Of a stretch of DNA of 64,000 nucleotides, positions 4,232-59,750 are shown in pieces. This DNA comes from Macrocystis pyrifera (taxonomy: Eukaryota; Sar; Phaeophyceae; Laminariales; Laminariaceae): the NCBI GenBank assembly GCA_031763025.1, contig JASSKH010000003.1:6934718-6998717 (forward strand). Direction: 5' to 3'. A program made the translations under genes and the position numbers. Under the pieces are notes generated by a model. It worked only from the letters and a program-made list of their open reading frames with translations, was not told where the DNA came from and searched no databases. Numbering within the stretch: the first letter of the stretch is position 1; the number at the start of each line of letters is the position of its first letter.

Positions 4232-4490
4232 CAGAACCAAACTCCTCGTGTGAAACATGAGGGAATTTATTCTGATGAGACGTTTTTTTGGGTCCACAAC
4301 GTCCGTTCTGGCTCGTACCTGGTACCAGTTACTTCGCTTAAAAAAAAAAAGAAGACATTTTTGTCATTATTTTAGTATATTATGTGTGGGGAATGGCAAT
4401 TGGGAAACGATTGGTCCAGGACTGGCAGAGAAGCGTATGATGAGGGATACTACTAATTTAAGGAAGGATATTCGATTTATTTATTACTAG

Positions 4491-4824
4491 CCGGCGTCCC
4501 CGGTGGCTTGGTGGTGGTTCGCGTGCCTATCAGGATCAATTTCGTGGGTTAAAGTCTCACCGAGTGCATGCTCGTAGGGGCTTTTTCTTGCATAAAAAAG
4601 TTGCTAAGCGGTAAGAGCGAGAGCGTGAGTAAGTTACATTCGATGAAAATCGACGAGCAGTGTGGGAATGCTGAACCCTATGCGCGGCAAGAAATAAAGG
4701 CACGTACCGGGGGGGAAAAGGGACGGCACCTGTGACCACGGCTTGTCCAGAAGATCGCTGAGGGTAAAACCTTCTACGAGTTAGGCTGGAGAGTATAAAA
4801 GTGATGATCAAAGAAAAAAAAAAA
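4491..4824 (+). mobile_element. tRNA-derived SINE, copy 1 (diverged)
   Basis: It begins GCCGGCGTCCCCGGTGGC and ends in an A run at 4814-4824. It matches the copies at 8386 and 8993 along its whole length, but with more differences. The B-box region reads GTGGGTTAAAGTCTCAC, so the TTCGAGT loop of the better copies is damaged. It contains GAAAATCGACGAGCAG and GTGACCACGGCTTGTCC as family landmarks. Confidence 0.8.
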
Positions 4825-4849
4825 GAAGGAACGGCATCTGATCTACAGT

Positions 4850-4850
4850 A

Positions 4851-4906
<56 letters not shown>

Positions 4907-5009
4907 GTTGTTTTCTTCACATTAAAATAAACCGTTCTTTCTACCCGTCGACATCCAGCACAACCAGTGTCCGTGCCGATTCTTCAATCCTAGCGAGATA
5001 AAAGTTCTG
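4850..5009 (-). repeat. AAC-tailed short repeat with a long (GTT)n run
   Basis: A (GTT)n microsatellite of about 57 bp (4850-4906) is the complement of the AAC tail. It is followed by TTCTTCACATTAAA, the CGTCGACATCCAGCAC block and the GATTCTTCAATCCTAGCGAG block of the repeat. The copy is truncated at about 5009. The plus-strand valine-rich frame through the GTT run is an artefact of the microsatellite. Confidence 0.8.
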
Positions 5010-5984
5010 TGGTACGCCATATTGTCGGAAGGCAAAATAATAATAATAATAATATCTTCGCCCTTCTTTTTCCTCTGCTTTCACTCAGATCCGGGGTCAA
5101 ATGCGCCTTGTACTCGAATGTAGCAGGCTCTCGTCCCCCCCCCCCCCCCCCCCGACACTGCGGTTCGTGCCTTCATTTTTATTGCGAGAAGACTTCTTCA
5201 GCCATTATTTCTCTTCCTTTGTCGACTCTCGCGTCGAAAGTTCGCCTATTATACCCATACATACGCTACGCGCTCTCTCTCTCAGCAGTTCAGTTGCTCC
5301 TTTTTTTACTCCCTTCCTAGCAATACTGTTAATACTACAGCATGCCAGCATATACTACTATTAATACAGTAACAAAACTGCATGCTGCTGTAGTAGTAGT
5401 ATAGTATGCCGACGGGTAGAAAGATAAAGCAGTTTATTTAATGTGAAGAACGCACACATACTACACACAACACTTGTATACCAGTATTACATATACTACA
5501 GGCACTACTCGTATAGCGTGCCTTTGCCATTCTTGTTTACGTCAATCCGTTATATATACGAATCACTCGATCGACCGATCGGGTGTATCTTTATATTTAG
5601 CAGCAAGCAGCAGAGGGGTGAAGACCATCGATTAACGATTAACAATAGTATCTGCGCATGCATGTGAGACTCAGTGTGTTCTCCTTTTTTTTTAAACTGT
5701 GTTAAGATCAACGGTTGCGGGACACTTTGTATCCCTGGACAGGTCTGCCTTTTAAGTCTGTAATCGTTGGGACTCACGTGTGTTGCTTGCTTGGCTATAG
5801 AAGAAGAGCAGTTTTATCCCTTTCGTGCACGCGGAGACTGAGACCAAGCTCGTGTGCCTCTGGAAAACCCCTGGTTTTCCATCTAAGATACGCCTTCCAA
5901 GTACTACAAATACGTTCCCAGTGACTGAACCCAGGTAATTACGGGGCTTTCAACCTCATACAAAGCAGTATCATAACACTAGCC
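5010..5984. other. No gene seen; repeat debris
   Basis: Includes an ATA/AAT microsatellite near 5036-5052, a run of about 18 C at 5136-5153, a partial AAC-tailed repeat at about 5408-5456, and TACTACTGCTG / TATTAATAG type short motifs. No open frame here shows recognisable protein wording or paired splice sites. Confidence 0.5.
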
Positions 5985-8728: not shown

Positions 8729-8784
8729 GTGCGAAGGCAAGGTATTATTGCGTGGTAGGCTATTAATGCATTACGGTGTGTTAT

Positions 8785-8985
8785 CTGTGTCGTAGTCTGT
8801 GACCTCAGAGCTCGTATCTTTCTAGGGTGAAGAATCAGCACGGACACTGGGCTTGCTGGATGTCGACGAACGAGTAGAAGTAGGGTTTAATGTGAAGAAC
8901 AAACACACTTACCACCCAACCACCCGTGCTGGTTCTTCAATCGTAGAGCGAGATACCGGTACAAGATCTGTGGTCATAAAACAAA
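8785..8985. repeat. Two head-to-head fragments of the AAC-tailed repeat
   Basis: A forward fragment (GTGTCGTAGTCTGTGACC to GTTTAATGTGAAGAAC, about 8785-8900) meets a reverse fragment (GGTTCTTCAATCGTAGAGCG to CTGTGGTCATAAAAC, about 8930-8985). The reverse fragment contains a 6-nt extra segment, CCGGTA at 8956-8961, absent from sister copies. Confidence 0.7.
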
Positions 8986-8992
8986 AACGACA

Positions 8993-10358: not shown

Positions 10359-10493
10359 CAACACTATTATCATTACGCTTCTCAGCAGCAACAGCACCGC
10401 CAACAAGCTCCACCGTTGGCATATGAGGAGTGGCAGGAGCTTGCGACCAACCTAGGGCAACTTCATGTGGGCGAAGCAGCAGCGCAATACCAG
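10212..10493 (+). CDS. Exon of an unrecognised low-complexity protein (exon a)
   Basis: A 94-codon exon with acceptor CTCACCACAG before AATCCC and donor CAG|GTACTA. It encodes NPLGMGVTSIEAEEYPG, then an alanine run written in GCA repeats, a Gln/His/Tyr-rich stretch (QHYYHYASQQQQ) and an acidic helix (LAYEEWQELATNLGQLHVGE) ending in AAQYQ. The donor is phase 0 and fits exon b at 11245. A methionine at codon 5 could start translation if this were the first exon; the acceptor-like upstream sequence favours an internal exon. I do not recognise the family. The CAG run may vary in length between individuals. The donor lies inside TACCAGGTA, a motif discussed among the findings. Confidence 0.5.
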
Positions 10494-11244
10494 GTACTAC
10501 TATTACCTACGAACGCAGAGGACTTTCGTGCTTCGATGATGGAACAACGGAACGCGAAAAAAAGCTCTCTCGTCTCTTTCGCTTTGTTTGTTATCGAATC
10601 GAACAAAGTGAATACCTGGAGCTATTCGCACGTATAAAGACGAAGAAATGAATAATCTCTGTGAACCTCCTGCAGTTCAGCACCAGTGCCTGTTTCGTAG
10701 TGGATATTAATCAATAGTGCAGCACAGCCAGCAGCAGTACACATGTATCGTATCCTAGCCGAGGCAAAGCCGTTGTATAGTACAACTGTCAGTAGGTCTA
10801 TGCATCGTGCTTGCATACACCAGGTACATGCTGTTGGAGATACCGCTGGAGATACTACAGCAGTATTAATAGTAGTATTAACAGTGGTAGTAGGCGAGAG
10901 ATGACGCTTTTTGCTTTCGGTGCTCGTGCCCTTTGCTGTCCGTGTCTGATGATGCTCTGTGCGCACGATAGACTCCAGCACACCATAATATAGTTGTTCT
11001 GCTAAAGAGTACATCAGGTACTAAATAGTTGACTTGATACATCAACGGCTGTCGTTCTTCATTCATTACACTGTCTACAACATATCACAGCAGATATATG
11101 TGAGATTTATCTGCAGCAGCAGTATTATAATAGTTTTTGTTTGTGGCTAATAAACAAAAATTACCTCCTTTCTCACACTGCTGCTGATGTCTGTTCGACC
11201 ATCCATCTCTTAATTTATTTCTGGCTCGCCCGGTCCCTCTGCAG

Positions 11245-13124: not shown

Positions 13125-13355
13125 TCACTCGTTGAATGCTCGCGGGGGGGGGTGTAAATCTATCTCGTGGTTGTAGCTATCCACGGCTTTGGGTGTGCTC
13201 TGAGCTGCTGAGGTGGCGTGCTTCTCTGCCACGAGGGTGGCGGGCTGTACGTGTAGTTTAGAACAAGCGTGTTGTCTCACCACTTTGTCCGGGAAATAGA
13301 AGGAGCGTATGGAGATCAGTATCAATGCCAGAACGATCGTTACATTTACGGACAT
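13125..13355 (-). CDS. Small hypothetical protein with N-terminal hydrophobic segment
   Basis: 76 codons from ATG at 13355. Residues 5-20 (VTIVLALILISIRSFY) form one hydrophobic segment directly after a short start, followed by a polar region with VAEKHATSAAQSTPKAV. That is the look of a signal anchor plus stalk, as in type II membrane proteins of the Golgi, so this could be the first exon of a longer membrane enzyme. A GTGAGA after FPDKV is a possible donor, in which case translation would stop matching there. No homologous family is recognised. Confidence 0.3.
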   Translation of the reverse strand: MSVNVTIVLALILISIRSFYFPDKVVRQHACSKLHVQPATLVAEKHATSAAQSTPKAVDSYNHEIDLHPPPRAFNE

Positions 13356-13885
13356 GGGTGGTGTTAATCCCGAGAATAGTGGTAGCCGTCACACGCAAAA
13401 TAATAGTCTCAAGTACTATGCGAGCTGGTGTATCATAGTACCAGGCAGTCAGTGCTGGATTACAGCGACGTGACGTTTCGAGTTGGCGAGTTGCTGCAAT
13501 CTAGTAGCTGATCGCATTACCATATGCCAAAACAGGGAATCGGAGAGGATGTAAACGGCAGTACGTAGATAGGAGACTTGAGGCAATGAGGTGAAATGTC
13601 GATATACACCTGGTACTTTTTAATGAGTGAGAGGCACTAGTGAGTTTTTTTAGTGACGAAAATGAACGGTAAAAGTTTCCACGCGGAGGGGTTGGGGGGG
13701 GGGGGGGGGGGGGGGGGGGGGTAGCACGGGAAAAACGAGATATAAATAAAACGGACAAAGTCTGCCTGGTTGAGCCACTCGTACGGAGCCGGCGTGTGGC
13801 CGTATACACGAGCAGAAATAGGATGCCGCACTCTGATGAACGGTGTAATCAACTTGAACATATATACCCTTCGGTGTGCTCTCAC

Positions 13886-16165: not shown

Positions 16166-16201
16166 CCCCTCCCCCCCGGTGTAATTGCGCTGAACCACCA
16201 T

Positions 16202-16303
16202 TACGGAGGACCGTAGTAAATAGCACGTACGGTACACACAAAAACTATATATTCCCCTTTTTTACTAAAAAAAAATTGGTCCCATTTACTATGGTCCTCC
16301 GTA
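16202..16303. mobile_element. TA-target MITE, copy 2
   Basis: TA-CGGAGGACCGTAGTAAATAG at the left and CTATGGTCCTCCG-TA at the right. It shares the inverted ends and AT-rich centre of the family, with diverged middle sequence. Confidence 0.75.
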
Positions 16304-16738
16304 ATATTATAATTTCGTCAACAGATGTGGACTGCAGAAAACGCAACACGTTCACCTTGCAGCATTTCGCGCCGCGCCGTTTTAAGCACCTTTTCAAGGC
16401 ACTTCCATATGGTTTCGTGATCTAGGAACCTACTCCGCGACTCGATGGACCACGGTAGACGTACGAGTACGCAATCCCCACACCGACGGAATACACATTT
16501 TACACATTTTTTCCCAAGGCTTCGAACAGCTCTTCGACCGCAAAAAGAGCACCGGTCAGTGCAACCGATCTCAAGCTTGCTCTTCCTTCCATGGAAAGCT
16601 ACAACAATTTGTGCTGTTGTGCGACAACTATGCCAGCATTTGGTTGAAATCGGCATTAATGCATCTCGTGACCAACCAACCGCTCGCTCGCCCGCAAACA
16701 GAGCTATTGTTGTAGTGGCAAAAGCGCTTCGCGTGCTC

Positions 16739-18217: not shown

Positions 18218-21200
18218 CTGAAGAGAGAGAGGGGAAGAGGTATCGCAAAAGATAGGCAACACGTTGAGAGCGGCAAATGAGCACAAAGGAAAATACACAA
18301 GAGAGGTTAAAACAAAAATAAACCGAGAAGCCAAGGCCGAGGGATTGAGAAACACTGAGTTAGGCACGCCCAAAGAGTCGCGAGAGACCAAGACCGAGTG
18401 GGGGTTGAGACACTGAGTGAGGGCACACGAACAACACTCGTGGGATTTTAGGCCCACGTCTTCATGTAACAAAGCATGGTCGTCTCATCATCTGCATCCA
18501 AACACATGTCTTTCCTTCCTCTTAACGGACAGGAAACATCGCAAAATGCTTCGTTCTCATTCGCCCCTCTACCTCCCGCCCAACAGCGGGGAAGAAAATA
18601 AACACAATAAAACTAATAACTAACGAGTTTTTTGGTTGGGAAGACGCCAGTTCAATCAATACCCACAGACATACGGCCGACACCCACCACTACTGCTTTA
18701 CACTACACACCATATTCCGTCAACACTCTACAAATCGAGGAGCGGCTACGCTACAACACGGGACAGGGCTGTGACCCCTCACATGACACTCGGCCTTCGC
18801 GCTGGAGGATCCTAGCGGTGTGCCTAACTCAGCGCCTCGTTTATTTTCGCAACAAAAAGCAACCGCCGAGCCTACGAGTACGGTACAGCAGTCGGCACGT
18901 CCGATCTGTGTGCTGTTTTCCATCCGTGTCCGGGGCCATTAACAACCCCCAGAAATCGATCACAGCGGTACCTAGCACAGTGATTCGTTGATTTCAAAAA
19001 GCAACAAAAAACCCCGGGGCTGCGTACGGTACAGCAGTCGGTACGTTCGACCTGTGCTGTTTTCATCCGTGGTCTTTTTGGGTCTTCACAACAACCGCCA
19101 AAAACCGTAACAGCAGTATCGCCAAAAACCGCTACGCACGTCCTGTTGAACTCTTCACCTCTCCGATTACGGCGTCGTAGCCTTGAGGGGGGCACATGCC
19201 ATCCGGCAGAAAGGCCTCCTGCGTCACGTAAGGCCTGCCCACCACGACAGACGCGGTGAACATGCACCTCCATGTTTTGCCGTTCCAAACCTGTATGGCG
19301 GATGGGGAGGGCAGATCCGGAGGAGGGGGGATGGACGGATGTGAGTCGGGGGGAAAAACAATACATTTTTTTTTTTTGTCTTACATATAGGGGACAAATT
19401 ACGTGTTGTACAGCGATGCGAAACGCGGTCGCGAACGCGACGAAAAAATACGAGGCTCTCATATACCATACCACCCTGGAAGGAAATGTGAAAACCCTTG
19501 GTGAGTAAATATCAATACCTACCGGTCCTTATATTTCCGGCCAAAGTAGTATATACAGTAGCGGTTCTCAGGACCCTTCTATAGCGCAAGCACGTGACCT
19601 CTGCATGTCCTTTTTCCGCAACTCATTCCCCTCTCCGCGTACATAGCATCTTCGCCCGACCAGTCCGTGTGAAACGCGATCGGAGAAAACACGAAACCGG
19701 TACTGGAATACGCTGTATGGCAACCCCGCCGCAACTTGAAAACATAATACATAGTCTTGACAGTAGTAGTTCATGCGGCTGATATGGTACGAGCCGTGTT
19801 ACATATGATGGCGGTAGCGGTGGCGCTGTTGTGGCGCCGTTGTGCCCAAATATTTTAGACAGGGCTCCTCAATTGAAGAGCTATACCCGCAATGCTTTTC
19901 TAGGATCCGATGTGATTGTTTTTGGTGTATTATTCGCGATATATACCTACTTAAATTGAAGCCCATGGGACTTTACGTGTCGGGGCTTTGCGTGCATTTC
20001 CCCCTGAAAGTCGGTTGCTGGATGAGAAGAGTTTTACAGCTCCTCAAGGGAGGAGACTCAGAAACTTCAGCAGTTACACCTGAAAAAAACACCGCTGTTG
20101 CTATCTTCCCTTGTACCGTGCGTCCATCGACGATAATCGTGGGTCGCGCTGGACCCAATTAGTAGCTGTACCGACGCATTTTTGCTGTTGTCACCGCTTC
20201 CCTATTCGTTTGCTTCCAGACTCTTGATACCTTCGCGCGGTTTGATTGTATTCTATTTGCTCTCCTACACCAAAAGCTGTGGCACATCAGCCGAAGGCCC
20301 CCATAGGTACCCCATCGAAAATCCTTTCGGGAATAGTGCCTGCAGACAGAAGTTGCACAACCAAAAAAAAGAGCTCAACCGATTTCACCACCTGGCGCGT
20401 GATCAGTCGCAGCGAGAACACAGCCGAGCTAACCACCACCACCACCACCACCACCATCACCAACGCCACGCTGACAATGACCACTGCAGCAAAAAGAGCA
20501 CCGGCACCAACCACCATCACCAACGCCACGCTGACAATGACCACTGCAGCAAAAAGAGCACCGGCACCAACACTACCGTGACAATCACCAATACGATCAG
20601 CAAACACCAGCACCAACCCTGACACCGACATCACATTAACATCAACCGAAAAGGGTACCTTTTGCGAATTAATAGCGTAATCGTTGGCCTTGCCGGATAC
20701 GCTGCTGAAGTACAGCCCCTCCCCGTACCGCAGGCTGACGTTCGTGGCCTTCGCCGTGCGCCCCAGGTTTCCCTGGAGCTTGCTGAAGCCGTGCGTGCAG
20801 ATGCTGCAGACGCTGCAGTCCGGCCTTGCGCACGGGCCTCCCTGCGCATCGCAAAAAAGACCACGCCATGTACCGGAGGGGGCGAAAGAAGCGTTGTGGT
20901 ACGGTAAACAGGCAACTAAAATAGCTATATGTTATACAAGTAAAATGTCCTAGACGGGGATACAACACTTTTCTACGGTATTCTCAAAATGTAATCGCTG
21001 AAACAAATACTAACCAAAAATGTATAGGGGGGGAGGGGGGGGGGGGTAATAACTGCTGAACTGATTGTTTGTTTTGGGGATACTATTAATAGTATGTACA
21101 GTAGGATGGATTTGATGAAAAAAAAGATAGGTTCGGAAATCGGGTCGGGGAAACGATATCTACTGCACTCCCCGACCGGGGTGGGGCATACATACCGCCT

Positions 21201-24200: not shown

Positions 24201-27200
24201 CTAGTTAGATCATTTGTGCGAGGTAAAGAACCTTTACTCTGCACAAGGGAATTGATCGTATCACGTAGTGTTCAAGGTACGGCACCCAAGAGGCAGTTAC
24301 ATAGTACTCCCATTGCTGTCTCTGGAAGTGGCCACACCGGAAATTAAACTAACTCATTGAAGCTGTTATCCATATGCAAGTCCGCCTCACAAGCGGTTCT
24401 TAGTAGGATGCAGCCCACCCTTCATGCGGCTCGCCGGACACCTCACGGCGCTTCGCGCTTGGTGCAAGCAATGTCTGCCTGGTCGGTGAAAACCGGACAT
24501 GCTCCGTCCCGGCATTGTAGGGGTGCGAGGGTCTATGGTCATACGATTACGGCCATGCATGAGATCGAGTACATCTCTCCTACCGAGTACACCCCCCCCC
24601 ACAGGAGGAAAAAGGGGTGCGCTAGAAAAAAAACATTCCAATTTTGGACCCTGGCTAGGCAGCAAGTAAGCCGCACGTGCGATACCCGCCGTAGGCCACC
24701 GCAGTCCACCGCACGCGCTGGATACGGTAGGCGAAAGCGTGGCGCCGTCTACCGTGCCATACGTGCTCGATCTCGAACGGATGCACATAAAATGGACAAA
24801 GGGGAAACTCCTCTATGATAATATCTTTAGTCGTGCTATCTAAATCTATATACTCGTCAGCGCTCAAGGCCCAAAGCGCGACAAGCATTTGAAGGGGGGG
24901 GGGCGCAGTATATCTGGAGGAAAAGAGGGCTTTTCCGCGACCCCTACTTACAGAAGGGGCTCGATTAAGGGAGCAGTTCCGAAATAGTAAACAGAGTACT
25001 TTGTCTCCATCTTTTCCACAGACTACAGGCAGCGGAGCTACTAGACCAATAGGAACGGCGAAAAAGAGAAAAAAAAAGGCTGAATCCACCAGGATATATC
25101 GACAGCTTCTGAAGACCCCCGTATGTACATAAATTGATTGCGAGTTACAGGCCACCGTGGGAGCGAACGAAAGAATGCGCGCCAACAACACGATACGGCT
25201 TGGTAATCTTGGTATAACGGGGGACCATAGTTAATACCTGGTAGGACCTACGGTATGCACAAAACACCCATATATTCCCATATTTTTATGAACAATATTT
25301 GGTCCTATTTACTATGGCTCCCCGTAATAGTTTCAAGGTGTCACGGTGGCGTGGGACACGAAACATCGCCATGTCCGAAAAATTATAAAAAAAAATCACG
25401 GCCCCAGACAAGGTCAAGAGCCCGAGTCGGTATGTACCCGCAAAACCGAAAACAGGGGGCAGGGGTTTGGGGAACCAGGATGCATCACCCGATCATATTA
25501 TTATTAAATAGGAATGGCCGTAAGTACGCTGTACCGCGAAGCATGCCGAATAAGTATCTTGTGTGTGAGGATATCTCTGCGTGTCACTCCAATTGGTCCT
25601 GAGACTGCATCAGATATCTCGCACAAAACCCTACCTACCTACCTACGTACGCCACCGTGGTTCGAACGAAATTCTGTCGGGCTAAAATGAATACCTGGTA
25701 TCTAGTATTCTTTAATCCTTTTTTCAGCCCATTTACTCACCATCTCCCTCCCTTCCGTAACTCAGCTCAGATCCGGGCCTTCATTTCTATCGCGGGGAAA
25801 AATCAGCGTTTTCTTTCCTCGTCGATTATCGTCGAATTATTTCTGCGTACAACACGCACGCTTTCTGCAGAAGATTCAGCACAACAGAATAGTCCAACGC
25901 CGAGCGGGGCTTCAACTCGCGAAACCGACCTTACTCAGCATTTACGAGGTCAAACCATTGCCAGACCGTAAACCACCGGGGGCGTCGGCCTACATGCCCA
26001 GCACTCAAGCAAAACCAAATGGATGCACATCGTATGTGTCTTCAGTCTATAGCGTAAAAATTAGGGAGTCGGTGAAGGCTGCCACAGGCTACCAGCCACC
26101 CCTAACTCGATTCAGGAAGAAGGCCACCTATTAATAGTATGTTATGTATAGGGGGTGCTATTATACCTATCCTGCACGATGAGCGAGGCAGGCCCGTATC
26201 TCTTCATCAAAGGTGGCGAGCATCGCCGCTGTAGAACCTTCTCGTTAGTTTGAACGATTTTGCTGCGTTGGATGTGGGCTACAGCAGGAGCAGCAGCAGC
26301 AGCAGCAGCTGCTGCACCTGTACGGGTACCAGGCGTGTGATGTGTTATTAATAGTGTCAGATACAAAACTTTGGCGGGCGACTGTAAAATTTCGTCCTGG
26401 TGGTTTGAACAGAAATACGGCGAAATTTCACAAACAAAACGCAACAAGAAATAAATAATCAGGAAAAAAGGGCTAATTTGTCATTTTTTCCAACTCTTGT
26501 ATATTCAATGATATGTACGCAAAGAAATTGCCCCTTAAATTCTAAAAACCATACGCACCAGGTAGCGACCAAAAAACATGAAAAACACTCCGAGCGGAAG
26601 CGTGCCAAGTTGATGTTTTTTTCTGGGGAACAATCGCCCATGAACCAACAAAATATCTCCGAGAGAATACTGGTATAACCGACTGTAACCAAAGCTTCAC
26701 ATGTATGCGTGTTGAATAAAATGTATGTAGCTTACCCTCAAGTCAACAAAGAAGTTGCAGTCGACGGAGCATGAGGTGCCGTGGAAGCGGCGACGCGTGT
26801 TGGTCGTGATCTTCTCGTAGTGGGCGTGCTTCTGGAGCACATCCTTCGGCACCTGCACGTTTTCCCCGGCGGCAATTCCCGCACGTTCGTGTCAAACTTT
26901 CGCTCGATTGGGGATTATCCATCAAGACCACCAGCACAGCAGCCCTTCACCCTTCACACCGGCCGTCCGTGCATAGTACGAGTGAGTACGTCGCAGATAA
27001 AAAATGCTTACGTATAATATTTCACGAGATATTTTGTTCTGGGCCGTCAGAGGGACACATCTTGTCTTGCGACAGCAGCAGTAGAAATAACCTGAAACAA
27101 ACGAGCAATACAAACGTTTTTGTAGAAGTCATACCCGAACCAGTATGTACACTCACTGCTGTCAATGTCTACTGCAGCTGCTCTACGAAAGAGAGGAGAG

Positions 27201-35259: not shown

Positions 35260-36300
35260 TGGTGCCGAAATACTCTTAATGTGCCCAGTATAGTTGGAGT
35301 ATGACGTATACTTCGACCGTCTGTGCACCGTTTCGACAATTCTCAGACCCATTGTTCGGCACAAAACACTCACAGATGGTCCCACGAGTGGGAGATGGAG
35401 CAAATTACTTTCGCTGCGGACAACTCGAGTACTTCGAGCACTGGCAGTATTTCGGGAATATGTACTGCGAGTAATCTCAGTACCTCGAGGTTCTGTCCTG
35501 CGGGTATTGCCTGTACTCCAAGTATTTCGTGTTTCGATACTGCGGGCACATATTTGTGTGCTCTCGGAGTTCCGTACTGCTCCTACTCTCAGTACTCTCA
35601 ATAGTTGGGCCTTCTCAGCACTCGCAATATTTTGGCCGCCAGTACTCCAATACTCTCAGTACTCGGACTACGAATTTGTTCTTGAGCATCCACTACTGGT
35701 ATCTGTGAAACCTTTATTTTACCCTGAGCGCCAAGAAAATACTTATTTTGCAGGAATATATTTTGCACGTGCTGGGTTTTACTCAGCCGGTCACAAAGTA
35801 ATATGTCCCAACCTCGTCCTCACGCAACTGTTTTTACTTACGTTTACGCCGCAAGCATTGGACTGATCGCCGCGAGTTTTGGGTTCAGGATCAATATCAC
35901 GAGTTTTGGGTTCAGGATCAATATCACACTCACCGGTATACCCTCTTTTATATTATTGTTGTATCAATGTTACGGGGGACCATAGTAAATAGGACCAAAT
36001 ATTGTTAGTATAAAGAGGGAAATATACAGGTTTTTATCTATACCATAGGTCCTATTAACTATGGACCCCCGTAATAGTAGTATTATAGTAGTGATGCCCA
36101 CTATTTCCACAAACAGCAGTATATATTTAGTCTGTCCTGAAAAATATGTGTGTTTGTGTGTTCTTTACATTAACGCTGGGTGGATGCAGTTAGTTCTAAA
36201 CAGGCAGGTGTGCAGGTATTTCATACGAATATTATATATTTCGTTCTTGCGCCAATCCCCTAGGCACCTTTCCGAGGGAACCTTGTAGTATACTTCTACC
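35260..36300. repeat. Large dispersed duplication, copy 1
   Basis: Shares order and wording with 38780-39605: GTACTCCAAGTATTTCGTGT, GCCGCCAGTACTCCAATACT, CCTGAGCGCCAAGAAA, CGGTCACAAAG..., CACGCAACTGTTT, ACCGGTATACCCTCTTT, GGTGTGCAGGTATTTCATAC and GCGCCAATCCCCTAGGCACC. The left 350 bp is dense in TACTGCGAGTACT and AGTACTCTCAGTACT. Similarity about 75-80% by eye. Between them lie CCRTGG arrays. No coding potential. Confidence 0.75.
35971..36073. mobile_element. TA-target MITE, copy 5
   Basis: The cleanest copy: TA-CGGGGGACCATAGTAAATAG to CTATGGACCCCCG-TA, 103 bp with target TAs. The sister duplication lacks it at this point. Confidence 0.9.
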
Positions 36301-36849
36301 AGGTACGTTTCTTTGTCAACCCAATGATATAAAACGTGATATTTTTATGCACCATCCAACAATACATTTTGCGGGCCAACGCCCGGTCTTCAACTTATTA
36401 TTACTACTGCTGTACTACGGAGGGGGAAGAGAAGCGGGAAGTTTGCATTATTTGCTTAGATTTTGAAATATTTATTTTCCGATTCGGGGATGCAATCTGA
36501 TCGGAACACGCAAATTAAGTAATTAATTTTTCCAACTTCTGTATTTCGTGCTGGAAATATTAATACTTGACTATACTTGTGAAATTTCCGTACTCATTCG
36601 AACATATCTCTTCGTACCAGCGCTTTTGGGCAAAACGCCAAGTCGTCGACACGGGAAGCCCGGCCAGACACATTGGTCGAGGTCCGGGCGCGATCCGTGC
36701 ACTCTGGAGCGCGTGGCGGGCGCTCAAAGTTTTTTTTTCCGGTGGGAGTGCCGATTTCCCTGGTTTCAGAACTAGAGGCCTTATTTTGCACGTACGTACC
36801 GGCGAAATGTCGTCATCTTTCATTTTTCATGAGTGTCGTACTTACTTAC
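36301..36849. other. No gene seen
   Basis: AT-rich first half, then a GC-richer piece (36620-36790) with overlapping short open frames on both strands. No splice pairing or family match. Confidence 0.35.
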
Positions 36850-38779: not shown

Positions 38780-39605
38780 GAAATACTCTCAATATGCCCA
38801 GTATACTTGAAAATGATGTATTTCGGGAGTATGTACTGCGAGTGCTCTCACTATCTCGAGGTTCCGTACTGGGGATATTACCTGTACTCCAAGTATTTCG
38901 TGTATCGATACCGCACGGATGCATGTTTGCCTGTGCTCTCGGGTTCCGTGCTGCTCATACTCTTAGTACTCTCAGTATTTGGGCCAGTACTCGCAAGACG
39001 TGAGCCTTCTCGGTACTCGCAACATTTTTGCCGCCAGTACTCCAATACTCTCAGTACTCGGACAACGAATTGTTCGCGAGATCTATCCATGAAACCTTTA
39101 TTTCACCCTGAGCGCCAAGAAACGTTCATTTTGCGGGAATATATATACCAGGTATATATTGTATGCGCTGGATTCTACTCCGCCGGTCACAAGCACTATG
39201 TCGCAACCTCGACCTCACGCAACTGTTTCGTACTGAAGTGTGCGCCGCAAGCACCGCGAGTCATCTGTGCAGGATCAATATCCACTTACCGGTACCCTCT
39301 TTAATATTACCGCTGTAGTAATTATCCCACATTATTTCCACAAACAGCTAATTTGGGGGCCCATAGTAAATAGGACCAAATATTGTTATCAATAGTAAAA
39401 ATATTGAAATATATAGGTTTTTATGCATGCCAAAGGTCCTATTAACTATGCATGCCCCCCCGTAATATCTACCTGGTACTCGTATATAGAATAAGTCCTC
39501 AAAACAGGTGTGCAGGTATTTTCATACGAGTATTATTCCTTCTTTTGCGCCACTCCCCTACTACTGCTGTGTAGGCACCTCCCGGAGGGGAACGTTGTAG
39601 ATCTT
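38780..39605. repeat. Large dispersed duplication, copy 2
   Basis: Partner of 35260-36300. It differs by the position of its MITE, by an extra TACCAGG near 39146 and by an exact 13-nt extra segment at 39559-39571. Confidence 0.75.
39351..39464. mobile_element. TA-target MITE, copy 6
   Basis: TTTGGGGGCCCATAGTAAATAG to CTATGCATGCCCCCCCG-TA. It is inserted at a point of the duplicated host repeat different from that used by copy 5. Confidence 0.8.
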
Positions 39606-40555
39606 ACTATTAATATATATATTTACTTTCCGAGTTCGGGCACGCGATCTATCATATCAAGCTATGGGATGTGCGCATTGTACAACCAGGTGTATGTCAA
39701 TAGTGTGCTGTACTGGTTTTCATTTCGTCCTGGCGCCACTCCCCCAGGCACCTCCCGGAGGGGAACCTTTTATTACATATTAATAGTATACTTGTAAAGT
39801 TGTTCTCACATTAACTTATCTGTCCGTGGTGAAAAAAAAGGCTCGCAACAAGTACTCTCGGGGATCTGGTGCCATTACACTTGTAGTACCGGGTATACTC
39901 TGTACTTGATAACCTTGAAGGAAATACCACTCTGTATCATTTTAAAAGAACCGGTTTTACACCAATTGTTAAACCAAAAGGTGATTATATTTCGGGACAT
40001 AGTGGTTACAATTAGCTCTCTACCATAGTAGAGTCTCTACCTGCAATCTGGGTTGAAGAACACCTGGTACAAAAACTGTATTGTAGAGATAGAGCCTATA
40101 AACCAGCTTCCCCTACACAGAGCCCTGTGATCTGCGGTAATATGTACGAGTATGATAATTTAAACGTTCCCCTCGAAGCAAAACCTGTTGGGAAAATATG
40201 TACGAGTACGAGTACTACACAGGACTATTAATAGTAGATTGCGCATGAAAGGTGCATGGACACTGCTGCTGCTCTAGAAGTACAGCAGTACCACTGTAGG
40301 CTACTGGACTACTCTACAGGTCTGCGTAGCGTGAAAAATACAATAACTGCTTCGAGTTGTAGCTGTGGGAACTACGGAAGGGGGCGATCTGTACGAGAGC
40401 AGTTCAGCAGAACTACCGATGCACTGCCGTTTTTCTGCCCTGTGAGACATTGCTTGCGGGAGGTTTCCGCGGGTCGAATCATGACAAATTACAACCACAT
40501 CATCGTCAAAATGAATCTTGAAATCCCGTAGATCGAATCTCTTAAGTACCGGAGA
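39606..40555. other. No gene seen
   Basis: A third short fragment of the large repeat's right end is at about 39690-39775 (GCGCCACTCCCCCAGGCACC, TCCCGGAGGGGAACC). The remainder is AT-rich with TATTAATAG and TACGAGTA motifs. A 91-codon plus-strand frame at 40256 has no family character. Confidence 0.4.
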
Positions 40556-40810: not shown

Positions 40811-41099
40811 AAAACAAAGACAATTCGAATCGAAAAGACCGGCTACAGGGAAGTTACTGGTATTACAGGATGGCAGTATCGAAACGGCCCGGTACCGGGA
40901 AGTTACCGGTACAGCACCATATATATTAATAGTACGTTGATACTGCTGCTGTAAGTAGGTTGATAAAGATGAACAAATAACAGTGACATTAATGTGTCAA
41001 ACTTGAAAGTTGAACGAATAATTTGAACAGAGGGACGGAAATATTATTCCAAAGGTCGCCACAAAGTTGCACCAAACTACGAGCTGGTTCCAGCGATAT

Positions 41100-41405
41100 C
41101 GCACTTACTTTTGCTCTTTGGTTTTTGAGAGTTGGAAAATGACATTTGGCATGGTTGTCCGTCATGACAAGATGGAAAAAACTGAACACTGCTCTTTTTA
41201 TTTTTGTTTTTTAGGTTCTTGGTAATTTTTTTTTCCCGTTTTTCTGATGTTTTTGGCGACTTTAACCCTCCCTCATTCACCAAAAAAATAAAATAAAAAA
41301 AAGACCAGTCGTCGGTTTTTATTTTGTTATCACGCACAACCATGCCAAATTTCATTTTCCAACTCTCAAAAATTAAAGTGCAAAAATTATTCCCGTGAAG
41401 AGTAA
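41100..41405. repeat. Inverted repeat with ~80-bp arms
   Basis: TTTTGAGAGTTGGAAAATGA then ATTTGGCATGGTTGT (41125-41165) pairs with ACAACCATGCCAAAT and TCATTTTCCAACTCTCAAAA (41335-41375). The arms extend to about 41100 and 41405. Outside, GCTGGTTCCAGCGATAT at 41087 is matched in complement by CGCTGGAACCAGC at 41827, hinting at a larger element of about 0.75 kb. Confidence 0.65.
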
Positions 41406-41883
41406 ATTAATCCCTCTTAATAGGTATAGAGTTGCTAAAAAGCTCGAATACATTGTTCTGGCAGGCGTTAAATATAACAGCCTTGCATGTTTCGCATAAC
41501 AAAACAAGTGTCACCCAGACGTCTTCCCCTTGTTGATACGATAATGTCAACACTTCTAAATAGTGTCGAATTATTCGGCGTATTGGCCGATTTATGGCCT
41601 AAATACGAATTTATATGAATGTTACTATCGGCAGTTTAAATCCCTATGCAACGACGCCTCCGCAAGTAATACAAACAATGTCCATATCTCGCGAACTACA
41701 ACTCGCACGCCAAAAATCTCTTCAGCGATGTGTTCCCCTCGTTCATCCGGGCATGTGGATATCTTTACTTGAAATTTTTTACGTATTCCGACATTTGTTG
41801 CCCGAAGGCGGAATTTGATGTGTGTCGCTGGAACCAGCTCGTACCAACAGACTACAGATGTAGTGTACACAGGAGCAGTACAG

Positions 41884-42170
41884 CAGTGTGTGTTCTTCAC
41901 AATAAATGGTTCTTTCTACCCGTCGACATCCAGCACCTAGCCACCAGCCACAGCAGTGTCCGTGCCGATCCTTGCCTAGAGAGATACCGGTGGAAGCTCT
42001 GTGGTAAAAAAACTACGCCACAAAGATACAACATTTTTATGCAGGAAGCAGAGTAGACAATGCAATACCATGACACATCGTACTGTATACGACAAACACG
42101 ACACACACATTCCATGGATGAAAGAAAACGCAAGCAAAAAAAAGCTACAAAGAAGCAACACATATAAACA
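41884..42170 (-). repeat. AAC-tailed short repeat, diverged copy
   Basis: TTCTTCACAATAAATGG, CGTCGACATCCAGCAC, GTGTCCGTGCCGAT, CTACGCCACAAAGATAC, ATTCCATGGATGAAAG. It contains TACCGGTG at 41985-41992, a six-base extra segment at the same point as the copy at 8954. Confidence 0.75.
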
Positions 42171-42400: not shown

Positions 42401-42408
42401 ACTATTAT

Positions 42409-42512
42409 TACGGGGGTCCATAGTTAATAGGACCCATGGTATACATAAAAACATGTATGTTCACCTATTTTTACTAACAATATTTGGTCCTATTTACTAC
42501 GGTCCCCCGGAA
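42409..42512. mobile_element. TA-target MITE, copy 7
   Basis: TA-CGGGGGTCCATAGTTAATAG to CTACGGTCCCCCG; inverted relative to copy 5. The right TA is altered (GGAATAAT). Confidence 0.85.
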
Positions 42513-43567: not shown

Positions 43568-43574
43568 GTTCGGG

Positions 43575-49433: not shown

Positions 49434-49996
49434 AAATACAAGTGCGGAAAACTACGTACAGATTTTCGCTGTTTCCACAGCTGCAATATTATAATACTCC
49501 TTTCTGGTGTATTTGCGGCCAGTTATGACTCCCTACAAACCGAAAACGACATTTTTCCAAGTGCTAAGACCGAACGAGATGTTGAATGTTTGAACGATTT
49601 GTTTTTACCTCATGTCAGCGGCTGTACATCACGGCGAACTTAAACCAAGACCTTGCGCAATCAGCACTATTACATTTTGTATGCGAGAGATTTCCAACGC
49701 ATTTGTTGATTCATACAGGGTCTGGGTTCGATTATTTTACTTCCAGGGTGCAATATTTCAAACAAAATCTAAAGATTGGTCCAAAACCGACAGACATTAT
49801 AATCTTGAAAAAAAAACGGGAGATTTTTTTTCAAAATCTTGCTCTCTCGTTAAAACCTTCGAAGCTGGGCCCTGTGTGTGTTGTCTTCACATTAATCCGT
49901 TCTTTCTACCCAACTACAGCAGTACACCCAGTGCCCGTCCTCATTCCTCATCTTAGAGAGATACCTGGTACTAATTATGTGGCCACAGACTTGTGA
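49434..49996. repeat. AAC-tailed repeat fragment and unique sequence
   Basis: 49880-49992 is a reverse copy of the AAC-tailed repeat (CTTCACATTAATCCGTTC, GTGCCCGTCCTCATTCCTCA, GTGGCCACAGAC) with TACCTGGTA at 49962-49970 as an exact seven-base extra. The remaining 450 bp has no supported gene. Confidence 0.65.
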
Positions 49997-52088: not shown

Positions 52089-53975
52089 ATCTCCCTCCCT
52101 TGTTACCACACTCTCTGCAACCAGCAGCAGCAGGAGTAGGGCACGCGAGGCCAGGGTCAGCGTCGCTATACGCTCGGCTTTTCTGTCTAACCCTTGAACC
52201 TTTTGTACACGCACTCGATTTTGTCTTGTGTTTCCTGGTCCCGAACCCAAACTTCGGCATAATTTGGAGACGAAAAATCTACAACCTGACATGTCCAACT
52301 GAGCTTCTCGTAGCAGGTACTACCACTACTACTGCTTTACGACATCTACAGCGGAGCTTCTCCAGCAGCAAAACAGCAGGAGCAGCAGTAGCAGTAGGAC
52401 ACACGAGGCCACGGTCAGCGTGGCTGTACGCTCGGCCCGTCGGTCTAACCCTCGAGTCCTTCGTACACGTACTTGATTTTGTTGTGTGTTTTCTGGTTCT
52501 CTACCTCGGAAATCGGCAAAATTTGGAGACGAAACATGTACACGTAGACACGTCCAACAGAGCTTCTCGTAGCAGGTGCCACCACTACTATCGATACTAC
52601 TGTACGACAGTTCCAGCAGAGCTTTTCCTGCTTCTCCGTTCCTGCACCAGTAGGAGGGTGGGCCTGGCAATACCACTTGCAGCATGTCTTGAGGACACGG
52701 CCCGAATGTTGCTGTGGACAGGCGCATTCTGCCCAAGAGTACTCGTAGAGTTGGGTTTCGTTCGGTAGAACTCATAAAACAAAAACCCTTATGACATGTT
52801 GCACCACTCTTAATACTAGTGCTGTACTGCAGCACGACATCAACAGCAGATCTTTTCCTGCCGTCCTCTCATCAGTAGGAGGGTGGGCCTGACAACACCA
52901 CCTGCAGCATATCTTAGGGACACGGCCCGAACATTGTTGTGGACAGGCACAGTCTGCCTACGAGCACTCGCAGAGTTGGCTTTCGTCAGATAGAACTAAA
53001 AAAACAAAAGCCGTTCCGTACTTCACGACTTACAACCGCACCAGCACGAGAAGATTCGCTTGTGTGTGCACAGAGCCCGCCGTAGCTGGTATTGGTGCCG
53101 TGTGTGTTGAGCTCGGTGGATAAACGTGGCCGAAAATAATGTTGAATCACACACGAGGACACGGTGACACACACAAACTTACAGAGAAACTATGAACGAA
53201 GCACCCTACTCTGGTACGACTCGTTATGAAGAGGCTTTTTTTCCTTGCAAGACCAAGAACACTCTCTGCAGCCAGCAGCAGCAGCAGCAGTAGGCACACG
53301 AGGCCAGGGCCAGCGTCGCTGTACGCTCGGCTCGTTGGTCTATCCCTCGAACCCCTTGTACACATACTCGATTTTGTTGTGTTTCCTGGTTCCCCACCTC
53401 GAAATTCGGCATAATTTAGAGACGAACCATCTATACGTAGACATGTCCAACAGAGCTTCTCGTGGCAGGTGCCACCACTACTACTGCTGCACCCTCATCA
53501 GTAGGAGGGTGGGCCTGACATACCACCAGGAGCACGCCTTAGGGACACGGCCCGCACGTTGCTGTGGACAGGCACATTCTGCCTACGAGTACTCGTAGAG
53601 TTGGGCTAACTGAAAAAGAAGGTTATGACAGGTGCCACCACTGCAACTACTGCACGACATCTACAGCAGATCTTCTCGTGCTTCTCCGTCCCCTCATCAG
53701 TAGGAGGGTGGGCTGACAACACCACCTGCAGTATGTCTTAGGGACACACCCCGAACGTTGCTGTGGGCAGGCAGTCTGCCTACGCCGTAGAGTTGGCTTT
53801 CGTTAGGATAGATAGCAATAAAAAAACAAAAAAAAAACCGTTTGATATTTTAGGATTTACAAACGCACCAGCATGAGAAGGTTTCGTTTGGTGTGCGTGC
53901 ACAGAGCCCGCCGGGATCGGCATTGGTGCCGTGTGTGTTGAGCGCTGCTGCTACGAGAAGGTGTGCCAAACGTCC
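51970..53975. repeat. Diverged tandem duplication, units of several hundred bp
   Basis: Landmarks recur in order: GCGAGAAGGTGTGCCAAACG (51990, 53955), ACACGAGGCCAGGGTCAGCG (52145, 52405, 53300), TACACGTACTTGATTTTGTTG (52210, 52470, 53355), TCCAACAGAGCTTCTCGTAG (52290, 52555, 53445), TAGGAGGGTGGGCCTG (52655, 52875, 53505, 53705), GGACACGGCCCGAA (52695, 52918, 53545) and GCCTACGAGTACTCGTAG. Order suggests four partial units, each ending in an A-rich stretch with AAACAAAAACC. Function unknown. Confidence 0.7.
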
Positions 53976-53989
53976 CGTACAACCGTTAC

Positions 53990-55700: not shown

Positions 55701-55715
55701 CCTTCGATGGGCTCG

Positions 55716-56141: not shown

Positions 56142-56241
56142 AGTCTCGGCATCACCGGAACATGAGCAATACGTCCGCAGAAGTCGGACGATGTCAGGAG
56201 GAAAGGGCACGCTGCATCGCGAGCCAAGCCGCATGTACCAG
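56142..56241 (+). CDS. Possible exon (1 of 2), unrecognised protein
   Basis: Acceptor CTTTGTGCACAG and a near-consensus donor CAG|GTAAGG. The frame open on both sides encodes VSASPEHEQYVRRSRTMSGG and KGTLHREPSRMYQ, ending in phase 0. It is compatible with the candidate exon at 56666. The donor falls inside TACCAGGTA. No family recognised. Confidence 0.35.
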
Positions 56242-56665
56242 GTAAGGCCGTCATTTGACACATACGTGTCGTCTCATGATACCAGCCGATCGTCCCCTTG
56301 ATCGCTTGTCTCTAGGGGCTGCAGGTCTCTCGAACTGTCGTTCGAATCGTAGGCACCGTTTTGACTGCTGTGTGAGGCTCTTCGGGATAATAAAACACAT
56401 ATAGACACAGCACTCACACACCACACCACCAGCGATTCTACCATGTCTGCCCGCCGACGACTTGAGCGTGGTTCTCTCACACACCACGCAAGAGGCTGTT
56501 GCTTGATTTCCCGGCTGCTGATCGCTGTTGCGGCTCTTGGGTCAGACACCCGTCGCCGCCTGCCGGTTGATCACCTTTGCCTTTGGTTTGCATTTTTGGT
56601 GTCGTTACGAGTTCGCTATGTTCGTATTAATACATCTAGCCACTCTTCCATCTCGAGCCCCACAG

Positions 56666-56861: not shown

Positions 56862-57150
56862 GTAATGAATCAGCTTATACTAGCCTACTCCAAAGCCTAT
56901 CTTGGAAAAAAATACAGGGGGCGGGACAAAATAGGTCCGCCCCGCTGCCTTAATTAGCCCTCTGGGATTCGATACGAAAAATCGCGAATGGAGCAGTAGT
57001 ACGGGGCGCACGAAGCAGACCGGGGTGTTGGGGTAGGGGCCGTGTCCGAAGTCCGAAACGCAGCACGATGATAACAATCATATAAACCCGGGTGTGGATA
57101 CTTGTACGTTTGCATCCAATTAGGTAGGAGCTTGATAAGACCACACGTAT

Positions 57151-57522
57151 ATGCGATCCCTTTTTAGGCCGTCATACCTCATACCCTTGGTCCCGAAAGG
57201 GTTGACCACTCTGGGACCTCTCGATATCCATAAAAAAGACTGGCAAAACTTGGTGCTATCAACCGTCTACGAGCAGCGTGAGCGTCCAGCAGTACGGGGT
57301 ACGATCAATGATCTCCACCCGTGCCGTACGACTCCTTGCATCAACCATTGTAACTCGGACACCAAAATTTGTATCATCCCCCAATCACGCACACTTGCCC
57401 TTGCTGTTATCATCTGTTTTTCGTCGTCGATTTTTTCCTCTGAAGCCTCAAGAAGGTTGATAAGTCGTCACACAGCACTATTAATAGTACAACAGTTAGT
57501 ACAGCAAGCAGTACCAGTATGA
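57151..57522 (+). CDS. Hypothetical reading frame
   Basis: 123 codons including GLTTLGPLDIHKKDWQNLVL and STVYEQRERPAVRGTIND. It may contain a further exon of the possible gene at 56.1-56.9 kb, but no acceptor or donor pair is convincing. Confidence 0.2.
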   Translation: MRSLFRPSYLIPLVPKGLTTLGPLDIHKKDWQNLVLSTVYEQRERPAVRGTINDLHPCRTTPCINHCNSDTKICIIPQSRTLALAVIICFSSSIFSSEASRRLISRHTALLIVQQLVQQAVPV

Positions 57523-58347
57523 CATCATAATACCCGGAAACATACAAGGAGAGCTTCGCCGGCGGCCTGGACGGCCGGCCGCCGGTCGCCGGCTCGCGAG
57601 TGGGACAGGTCCATACGCCCCCTCTGTGTAGCTATGTACAGTAGTACCATGAACCATCTACGCCAGGTACCGAGTACGTACGTATCGGTATCGAGTACTG
57701 CTGCCTATACGTGCCGGCATAAAATACCACGGCAGGTACAGCAGTATGTTACTACTGCTGTCTAGTCATTTCACACTCGAAAATACCAGTGTGCACGCGA
57801 AGTGAAACACAAATCATCAAGCAGCGAATAGGCATTCTCACTCAACCACAAGCAACTTCTTCGTAGAACAGAAGCAGCAAGCAGTAGTATCATACCAGGA
57901 GCAGTATAAAGGTCACAAAGCCGAACATCATCGTCCGAAAACTCGTACGTATATGTAGACGCGCGGGTGCGATTACGAGCGAATGGGAGATTTTAATTTC
58001 GACGGCACCAAAAAAAAGAGGCGTCCCTGAAGCATTCCGACGTACGCTGTCCGCACGCACACGAGTTGACGACAACAACAAATATCCTGCACCACGATTT
58101 CCTAGCGACAACTATACTACACACATATATATTAAATCATCGTTTTATCTATGTACATCAATCGCGTTGTTGAAACTTCGTGTGCTATGCTCGCACGTTG
58201 AAGGTGATCAAAGTTTGGTACGATAACCAGATAAAAAACTTTTTGGAGTGCCGACAGTCGAGACACGAGGCATGAAAGCATGGTTTCCTTCTCCGCCGAT
58301 GTATGAATGTCTAGTCGTTTCGAGAAAGCACGGAGACTGCTGTGAAC
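57523..58347. other. No gene seen; GC-rich palindromic patch
   Basis: 57550-57600 is a GC-rich patch with self-complementary GGCCGGCGGC-type units (GCCGGCGGCC, GGCCGGCCGCCGG). The rest is AT-rich with TACTGCTG/CAGCAGTA motifs. Confidence 0.4.
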
Positions 58348-58435
58348 CCCTTTTAGTACTGCAGTCCCGTTTTGTGGACACACTGCTGAGAATTTGAGTG
58401 GTTTGCCTCCGAAGCCGGATTGCACTTCTAATACT
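58348..58435. mobile_element. Small MITE with CCCTTTTAG inverted ends, copy 2
   Basis: CCCCTTTTAGTACTGCAGTC to the worn end GATTGCACTTCTAATAC; middle CTGAGAATTTGAGTGGTTTG aligns with 31523-31605. Confidence 0.6.
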
Positions 58436-58799
58436 TACTGCACTGAACGTACCGACGCCGTGCGCCCTTACAGGGCGACACGGTCGACCTATGGCCTATG
58501 CCATGAAGTGTCATACGCACCCCACAATGCCGGCCGACCGACCGCGACACGAGCCTCAAGCCGCGCGGTACCTCGAGCTGGACCCACAGCTTTCCGCTTG
58601 GGCAGAGGAATCTACAGTATGTACCACTCTGCCTCAAAAATGTAAAAACCCTTAGTAAATACCTGGTACATATTTAATCAAACCGCTCGTTACATTTCGG
58701 GACAGCGTGGCATAGTTTATCACATTCATATAGTACGAGCTCTAGAAACCAAAAACTACTTGCCAGAAGTAGTCTCTCACATAATACGCTACTTGATTT
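58436..58799. other. No gene seen
   Basis: Two overlapping 80-codon plus-strand frames without family character. TACCTGGTA at 58660. Confidence 0.35.
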
Positions 58800-59430
58800 T
58801 TTATTGGGAGCTCGTGGAAGCTTCCATGGAAGTAGATGGCAGCTTAATCTTGTACGGAAATAGATGGAAACTTCCATGGATGTAGTGAAAGTTTCCATGC
58901 AAGTAGTGGAATATTAACATATTGAGATCCCATGGAACCAGGGGAAATTGCACAGAAATTTCCATGGAAACATACAAAAGTTTGATCTACTTCCATGGAA
59001 GCTGTAACAGGTAGTACTACGTATGAGTCGGGGAGGAGTTGCAGTAGACCACTATTAATACTACACTACTGTAGATTGTTGTCGAAAGAGGTCTCTCAAA
59101 GTACAGCGACCTACTAATAAGAATACTTCCGTATCATACAGCGAATCAGAGAAGCACAGCGACCTACTGCTGTAGGTTCTTCCCAAAGCACACCAGTCAA
59201 GCGCAAGCCTCTGGTAGGTTTTAGGGTAAAGGTGAAAAGGCACAATTCAGTTCTTCGAAGTATTAACACTATACTATTGTATCGGTAGTAGTTTACTGCA
59301 CAAGTCAGAACTTCGTGGAAGTTAGTGGAAGTAAGCATAGCTCGTGGAAGCTCCATGGAAGTTCCAATGGGAAGCACGGAAGCGTTCAAGGAAGCATCCA
59401 GCTTCCACACTCGGTGGAAGTTTCCATTTC
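58800..59430. repeat. Cluster of TTCCATGGAAG palindromes
   Basis: CTTCCATGGAA or a close variant occurs about a dozen times, in two groups (58815-59000 and 59310-59445). Spacing is irregular, between 12 and 60 bp. Related in spirit, not in sequence, to the CCRTGG arrays at 37.4 and 38.2 kb. The groups flank a 300-bp unique piece holding GTACAGCGACCTACTA twice (59099, 59156). Confidence 0.75.
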
Positions 59431-59750
59431 TTCCATGGCCACTACTAACTTTCCACTACACAGAGCGGCAGATTCTACATTTCTATGAAGTGCCCGGTAT
59501 TTGTTTGCATACTTCATACCTGGTACCGGTATACCTGGTACAACAGAAGCACTCCAAGTACTCTCCAGCCCAGCTTGCAGCAACTTATTAGCTATCACGC
59601 TCGGCGGCATTCTGAACAAGCCGCGTGGTCACACTCGTATGTAGGCGTCTATACTTCTGCCCCCGATTACTCGCTCAGCTTTGATCGCCCTGTTACTCGT
59701 GGGGTTCCTACTCGCTCGTACTCGTAGCCCGTCGACTGCCATCGAATGTT

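Follow-up and report, generated by a model that had tools for sequence, protein, structure and literature searches.

TA-flanked words in the kelp Macrocystis pyrifera as probable excision footprints of Tc1/mariner-type elements

Short words at TA in the window and the genome

The stretch analyzed here, hereafter the window, comprises 64 kb of the genome of the kelp Macrocystis pyrifera and contains copies of three TA-flanked elements, termed MITE-A and MITE-B (for miniature inverted-repeat transposable element) and element C, together with many short, near-palindromic words bounded by TA on both sides. The principal word, TACCTGGTA/TACCAGGTA, has the core CCWGG (where W is A or T) and lies at 4316..4324, 25235..25243, 25692..25700, 28792..28800, 39470..39478, 49962..49970, 58660..58668, 59517..59525 and 59532..59540 on the plus strand and at 10488..10496, 36297..36305, 39146..39154 and 56236..56244 on the minus strand. 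All 13 coordinates given for this word in the original prediction were exact, and the 13 copies compare with a mean of 0.36 and a maximum of 2 in 100 dinucleotide-preserving shuffles. The prediction had named related words as frequent, and their excess in the window was borne out by trinucleotide Markov counts: TACGAGTA/TACTCGTA was found 20 times (2.3 expected), TACCGGTA six times (1.1 expected), TACAGCAGTA/TACTGCTGTA 11 times (0.2 expected) and TATTAATA 18 times (0.4 expected). Some copies of TACGAGTA and TACAGCAGTA are common to duplicated repeats, so that these counts represent fewer independent events. A further word, ACTATTAATAGT, has four copies.

In the whole assembly (537,376,219 bases in 223 contigs), TACCTGGTA was counted 60,614 + 60,665 = 121,279 times, as opposed to 1,182 + 1,239 = 2,421 times for the reversed control word. 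Thus, the genome-wide count that the prediction had proposed as a check revealed an excess that is not confined to the window, where the density of 1 per 4.9 kb approximates the genome mean of 1 per 4.4 kb. The corresponding counts were 42,211 + 42,665 = 84,876 for TACGAGTA and 8,583 + 8,395 = 16,978 for its reversed word. All copy counts refer to exact words and therefore miss decayed scars, as the words are interpreted below.

Core composition was assessed in a 264-kb sample that combined the window with 20 further 10-kb stretches, drawn from five large contigs at round-number positions; expectations for TA-core-TA words came from a third-order Markov model. Here, the cores CCAGG (64 versus 2.0 expected), TTAA (60 versus 5.5; the commonest 4-mer core besides TATA), CGAG (49 versus 11.2), CAGCAG (26 versus 1.5), CCGG (16 versus 3.1) and CCAG (24 versus 11.1) were all in excess. 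CCWGG occurred 539 times in total and had TA on both sides in 64 cases, compared with six for the next commonest symmetric dinucleotide; the next commonest flanks overall were TG..TA and CA..TA. The density of the flanked word was uneven, with none in five of the 20 sampled stretches and eight in one of them (L024). When the TA total of the sample is scaled to the genome, ∼0.42% of all TAs carry CCWGG (121,279 of ∼28.6 million).

One abundant repeat with the word inside it could produce an excess of this kind, and some copies are indeed duplicates, such as 10 identical rows on small contigs. The 64 TA-flanked copies nevertheless fell into 46 flank clusters, many of the joins being between neighboring, overlapping copies, and the 13 copies of the window lie in different-looking contexts. 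A single repeat family, which the prediction had named as a finding that would overturn it, does not account for the excess; at this scale the explanation is refuted, and we attach next to no probability to it.

Filled and empty sites

Comparison of paralogs in the 264-kb sample yielded 399 distinct insertions of 3-16 bp. Non-tandem insertions of at least 5 bp were accompanied by a duplicated TA in 16 cases, compared with 0-9 (mean ∼4) for each of the other 15 dinucleotides. In the window, 198 instances of enriched words were compared with their paralogs, and the alignments were also read. Five CCWGG sites had a usable spanning paralog, and none of the five was filled in a window paralog: the sites at 25235, 28792 and 49962 were cleanly empty there, that at 39146 approximately so and that at 58660 weakly so. 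For seven of the 13 copies, including those at 4316, 10488, 25692, 36297 and 56236, the window offered no usable paralog across the site, and the pairing of 59532 with 39470, in which the site seemed empty, was discarded as an artefact of chained words.

The copy at 25235 lies at a TA within a MITE-B copy (25215..25327) and has three empty paralogs in this comparison. When seven MITE-B copies were aligned, exactly TACCTGG was added in this copy, the other six having TA alone; a MITE-B copy outside the window (L022:98) carries the word at the same TA. The site at 28792 has one empty paralog (23827-23984), which reads TCTACCTGGTACGTAA where the filled site reads TCTACGTAA, and that at 49962 has six. 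At 39146 the word stands in a (TA)n stretch, and the 13-bp gap relative to the paralog at 35447-36076, which lacks the word, includes TA units, so that the empty site is approximate. The single empty paralog of 58660 (19484-19553) is weak, at 71% identity. Judging from these alignments, the word is TA plus CCWGG added at a pre-existing TA. As in Tc1/mariner footprints, TA is doubled at the scar and single when the site is empty, with an altered TA at some empty sites.

Several related products may occupy one site, as is also characteristic of such footprints. The sites at 8954, 41985 and 49962 are equivalent TAs in copies of a single repeat family, with the cores CCGG, CCGG and CCTGG. The first is a TACCGGTA footprint variant (8954..8961) with six empty paralogs listed; the second, TACCGGTG (41985..41992, plus strand), is probably a decayed TACCGGTA, its paralogs reading TACAAG, TAAAAG or TACGAG. 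Other words were likewise absent from paralogs, although here some or all empty sites were not a clean TA: TATCAATA (39387..39394, plus strand), in which TATCAA is inserted at a TA in MITE-B, is missing from five paralogs, with an intact TA in two; TATCGATA (52589..52596), inserted at TA, is missing from two paralogs that have TA and AA, respectively; and TACCAGTA (62019..62026, plus strand) is missing from the opposite arm of a foldback, where the site is CA. This foldback, at 61632-63050, is large and older, with arm pieces 83-87% complementary, and served for the presence/absence comparison of TACCAGTA.

A single TA shared by the many MITE-B copies of the genome was scored with the pattern CATAGTWAATA N(1-14) TAGGACC, which retrieves inserts between exact flanks. 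There were 559 inserts of 1-14 nt and 47,784 empty sites genome-wide; the reversed control gave 0. Among the first 100 of the 559 inserts, 44 were CCWGG (28 CCTGG and 16 CCAGG), and 10 of the 28 CCTGG inserts were copies of one larger repeat. Near variants in the same 100 comprised CCGG (4), CCAG (3), CCATGG (2), CCCTGG (2), CCAGGG (1) and CCTTGG (1). Slippage or tandem duplication was rejected as the origin of CCTGG, whose sequence does not repeat the flank. Extrapolated from these 44 inserts, ∼0.5% of the fixed MITE-B TAs carry CCWGG, close to the genome value. Dating of the families from such counts (CGAG once, as CTCG, and TTAA 0 times among the 100) was tried and set aside; no date was drawn because target preferences differ between families.

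The agreement between the two rates bears on the view that CCWGG is a functional motif, either a regulatory site or a methylation target, kept by selection. A strong excess of one word is what such a view predicts, but the clean inserts in MITE copies occur at a per-TA rate similar to that of the genome at large, and a function of CCWGG leaves the bias for TA on both sides (64 of 539, versus six for the next pair) unexplained. Selection of this kind is therefore highly improbable.

Words also occur in chains with shared or nearly shared TAs. At 39470, TACCTGGTA is directly followed by TACTCGTA, giving two footprints with a common TA; the copy at 59517 is linked via TACCGGTA to that at 59532, the final member of the chain TACCTGGTACCGGTATACCTGGTA. 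Chains were seen at 59517-59540, 40201-40214 and 14250-14285 of the window and in two sampled stretches (L024:582-809 and L021:7459-7489). Close neighbors in the window numbered 23, compared with 7.2 (standard deviation 2.7) for random TAs, and a pattern of word pairs at 6-base spacing was found 102 times genome-wide and 0 times when reversed. This suggests that the TAs of scars are reused or preferred.

Element ends and the origin of the words

Taken together, the words are very probably excision footprints of Tc1/mariner-type (Stowaway-like) MITEs, and several element families are involved in their formation. Resident TA-flanked elements have ends that fit the cores: CCA...TGG for CCWGG, TTA...TAA for TTAA and CGA...TCG for CGAG. 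Thus, for MITE-A, MITE-B and element C alike, a core can be composed from the first bases of the two ends.

In the proposed mechanism, a cut-and-paste DNA element would insert at TA, duplicate it and later leave, so that a TACCWGGTA scar remains. A Tc1/mariner-type transposase would cut within the element ends, leaving a 3' overhang of ∼3 nt (CCA) beside the duplicated TA. Host end joining could then unite the CCA overhangs across a single A-A mismatch at the center of the core, which mismatch repair would set to A or T to give TA-CC(A/T)GG-TA. Joining of the overhangs without overlap would give CCATGG, and trimming would give CCGG or CCAG. By the same logic, the TTACGGGGG... ends of MITE-B would leave TTA overhangs of three bases that pair over two bases to yield the TTAA scar, and the CGAGCTGG... 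ends of element C would yield CGAG scars. With a center restricted to A or T, G or C at this position should be rare, and CCCGG was indeed found three times in the 264 kb compared with 64 for CCAGG. The near-palindromic form of the words would then reflect the rejoining of two inverted ends and not a hairpin function.

The link between scar and element is best documented for MITE-B, whose ends read TTACGGGGG...CCCCCGTAA. Of 28 copies, 25 measure 104-106 bp; on the outer side, TA borders the right end in 23 and the left end in 19. Copies in the window other than that at 25215 lie at 16201..16304 (TTACGG...CCGTAA), 35970..36074 and 42408..42512. The dinucleotide AC precedes the target TA in 11 of 23 MITE-B insertions, as opposed to 1,649 of 28,078 TAs overall (∼6%). 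The same preference was evident in the flanks of TTAA (TATTAATA) scars (43 of 120, or 36%, from both flanks of 60 scars; Fisher p ∼1e-22) and was not seen in those of CGAG (5 of 98) or CCWGG (3 of 127). Given that TTAA scars have the AC target preference of resident MITE-B, ACTATTAATAGT, which corresponds to AC-TA-TTAA-TA-GT, is best read as a TTAA scar in a preferred target. MITE-B could also be cut as a PIF/Harbinger element with a TTA target (3-bp TTA/TAA, or TWA) and a CGGGGG end; the TTAA scar with its shared target preference favors a TA target and a TTA end. MITE-B itself was rejected as a source of CCWGG, as its ends are TTA.

Element C, the candidate source of TACGAGTA, lies at 41078..41843, is TA-flanked and has terminal repeats CGAGCTGGTTCCAGCG, with 762 bp between the TAs. 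Its ends were matched 275 times in the genome at no more than one mismatch, versus once when reversed, and they fit the TACGAGTA scars. The footprint of the transposon Minos is TACGAGTA, with an identical 4-nt core between the TAs. The likeness concerns the core, and in kelp the CGAG ends belong to the resident element C.

For CCWGG, the likely mobile unit would be MITE-A, a palindromic element of ∼80 bp with the 5' end CCACTCTGGNCGGAAATATAAGGACCG at TA. Its end emerged from a search at the fixed MITE-B TA for TACCW followed by anything except G, which returned 33 rows (six for the reversed control), mostly MITE-B variants and a few scar variants. Two rows had the same new sequence, TACCACTCTGACCCRAAATATA, also present at 39925 and 58624 of the window and with the 5' end CCA that the scar had suggested. 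A profile search found 18 end matches in the 264 kb, and five pairs of ends, one of them doubtful, face each other at a distance of 79-81 bp; genome-wide, the end with TA was matched 709 times at no more than two mismatches and 0 times when reversed. The TA was nearly constant in the 100 listed of these 709 well-kept ends and was altered in seven of 83 listed one-mismatch rows, where ∼6 would be expected if it were as constant as the terminal inverted repeat (TIR). Copies in the window lie at 39925..40005 (ends CCACTCTG...CATAGTGG, between a left TA and a right TT), at 58624..58710 (between a left TA and a right CA, and host to the footprint at 58660), at 19471..19549 (79 bp; ends CCACCCTGG...CCAAAGTAG) and, diverged, at 13280..13360. 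Like Stowaway-like MITEs, both MITE-A and MITE-B are short and palindromic and show TA duplication. Two other sources were rejected. The first five bases of a single end (CCAGG...) do not supply the core, since MITE-A reads CCACT and CCGG requires both ends; the Mos1-like ends CCAGGTG at 13609 and 40063 had no matching partner end in a scan of TA-flanked sequence.

These findings may be set against the proposal of direct insertion, in which one enzyme system would put short hairpin-like words into TA sites. The words are inserted at TA throughout the genome, as it would require, and intact MITE-A is rare at the scored TA (two rows). By contrast, the cores correspond to joined ends of resident TA elements, are family-specific and vary as end-joining products do (CCWGG, CCGG, CCAG and CCATGG), and a family-specific target preference was found in the one case tested. 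To our knowledge, no machine is known that inserts fixed 5-mers, which also counts against direct insertion, and we consider it very unlikely. The original prediction of one genome-wide process placing hairpin-like motifs at TA sites thus holds with respect to genome-wide occurrence and TA sites; a single process and the placement of hairpins as such do not agree with cores that match the first bases of elements and differ by family.

A possible, though doubtful, alternative is that the words are footprints but that most CCWGG scars derive from a different TA element with CCA or CCT ends, which might be pogo-like, MITE-A playing a minor or passive part. In its favor, the copies of MITE-A are old, the genome encodes DDE_1 proteins and CCT ends would yield the same scar. 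However, MITE-A is the only end seen twice at the scored TA besides the MITE-B subfamily TACCACCTRCGG and single scar variants, and the CCA by-product TACCATA is mildly in excess (52 versus 33.6 expected), TACCTTA occurring 13 times. Attribution of most CCWGG scars to MITE-A would accord with the latter observations.

Several observations weigh against the footprint interpretation as a whole. Excision was not directly seen. An exact TA stands beside only six of 20 MITE-A end matches in all sequence fetched, and the copies have diverged; this erosion makes the link of MITE-A with CCWGG weaker than that of MITE-B with TTAA. Recognizable MITE-A ends are also far fewer than the scars. About four in 10 of the 100 listed inserts at the fixed TA were neither CCWGG nor a close variant; they included slippage-like AA (8), A (5) and GTAAA (5) and odd single inserts, one of them CTCG. 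Several TACGAGTA, TACAGCAGTA and other words are common to window paralogs and are thus older or copied, and CCWGG stands in both paralogs of some pairs outside the window (L026:6965/7405 and L020:7116/7485), as copied scars would. The CAGCAG core has no source element here. The products, at 4-6 nt, reach or exceed the upper limit of the 0-4 bp described for Tc1/mariner elements. As for the transposase, DDE_3 was not detected in the genome search at E 0.001 and none of 16 Transposase_1 rows was above the cut-off; only DDE_1 (pogo-like) was clear, with 40 of 45 rows above the cut-off, and the ends of its elements could not be read.

Many of the DDE_1 loci (L039-L048) have open frames of >300 amino acids. 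Pairs compared among L042-L048 are 97-99.6% alike over 2.6-3.6 kb and apparently recent, and L039 is a 72% relative. The CAGCAG word (TACAGCAGTA/TACTGCTGTA) is found at 54209, 54445 and nine more sites in the window and 26 times in the 264 kb; CAGCAG (TACTGCTGTA) may represent (CAG)n growth within TACAGTA scars.

Known footprints, scar load and other features of the window

Excision footprints as such are already known, and the surprise lies in their load in kelp. Tc1/mariner elements leave 3' overhangs of 2-3 nt, and end joining then places an end fragment between two TAs (PMC3878927, PMC2874221, PMC4561436). The C(A/T)GTA of Sleeping Beauty and Frog Prince and the T(T/A)A of Hsmar1 share with the kelp words a 2-3-nt 3' overhang and an A/T-ambiguous center (PMC3878927); unlike these, the kelp cores would run from CCA to 5 nt and from TTA and CGA to 4 nt. 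Stowaway scars contain fragments of both ends, and the Triticeae footprints described, like those of kelp, have TA on both sides of 1-4-bp TIR fragments of the ends and several footprints per site (PMC1925063). The Triticeae account concerns a handful at one intron, whereas kelp has on the order of 100,000 copies of one product per genome. Ectocarpus, also a brown alga rich in Mariner-Tc1 MITEs, has almost 12,000 copies of Mariner-Tc1 elements, mostly non-autonomous; in the main text of that paper the words "footprint" and "excision" do not occur (PMC12477816). Among the open-access literature matches listed, none described such scars in kelp or an excess of footprints across a whole genome, and a literature search with the exact word gave no transposon paper by title.

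At the scored TA there are roughly 250 CCWGG scars and two recognizable insertions, a ratio that is rough because the 250 is extrapolated to all 559 inserts from the 44 among the first 100, and because an insertion whose first base had changed would escape the search. Tentatively, and with less than even confidence, the elements might lead a hit-and-run life, in which most insertions are excised in the germ line and the breaks joined with no template, perhaps because the haploid gametophyte has no homologue; in that case the genome would keep a near-complete count of past excisions, and the scar of each family could be read from its terminal three bases. DNA transposon excision is normally hard to see, its scars being short and random-looking. 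The kelp scars are long and numerous (∼0.4% of TAs) and can thus be counted, dated and sorted by family, and the ∼120,000 scars would constitute a rare fossil record of how often elements left. Sequence alone could thereby yield lifetime rates of insertion and excision, target choice and repair outcome for a non-model eukaryote. Any 7-bp scar that lands in a reading frame also shifts that frame, and scars distort the k-mer statistics of a kelp genome used in breeding and conservation.

No host gene was found by Pfam searches of six-frame translations in 5-kb pieces (20 of the 64 kb), the one match being CR_prot_dom_plant at E 0.0017, below the cut-off; Rfam and tRNA searches of the window gave none, and a viral_contigs search gave no relative. 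A reverse transcriptase fragment at 22423-23142 matched RVT_1 above the cut-off (E 6e-11), and another at 6787-7629 matched it below the cut-off (E 1.5e-4). The region 43563-48293 is possibly a DIRS-like retroelement, judging from the order of its open reading frames and a weak tyrosine-recombinase match (Phage_integrase, E 0.008, below the cut-off, at 47103-48293); the preceding frames had no match or a weak one to Peptidase_A17. The window further contains an ∼930-bp foldback at 8397-9323, with arms 99% complementary and a 259-bp center, an unbroken run of 70 C at 16740-16809 and tandem arrays at 1167-1559 and 27390-28195, with units of 42 and ∼40 bp, respectively.

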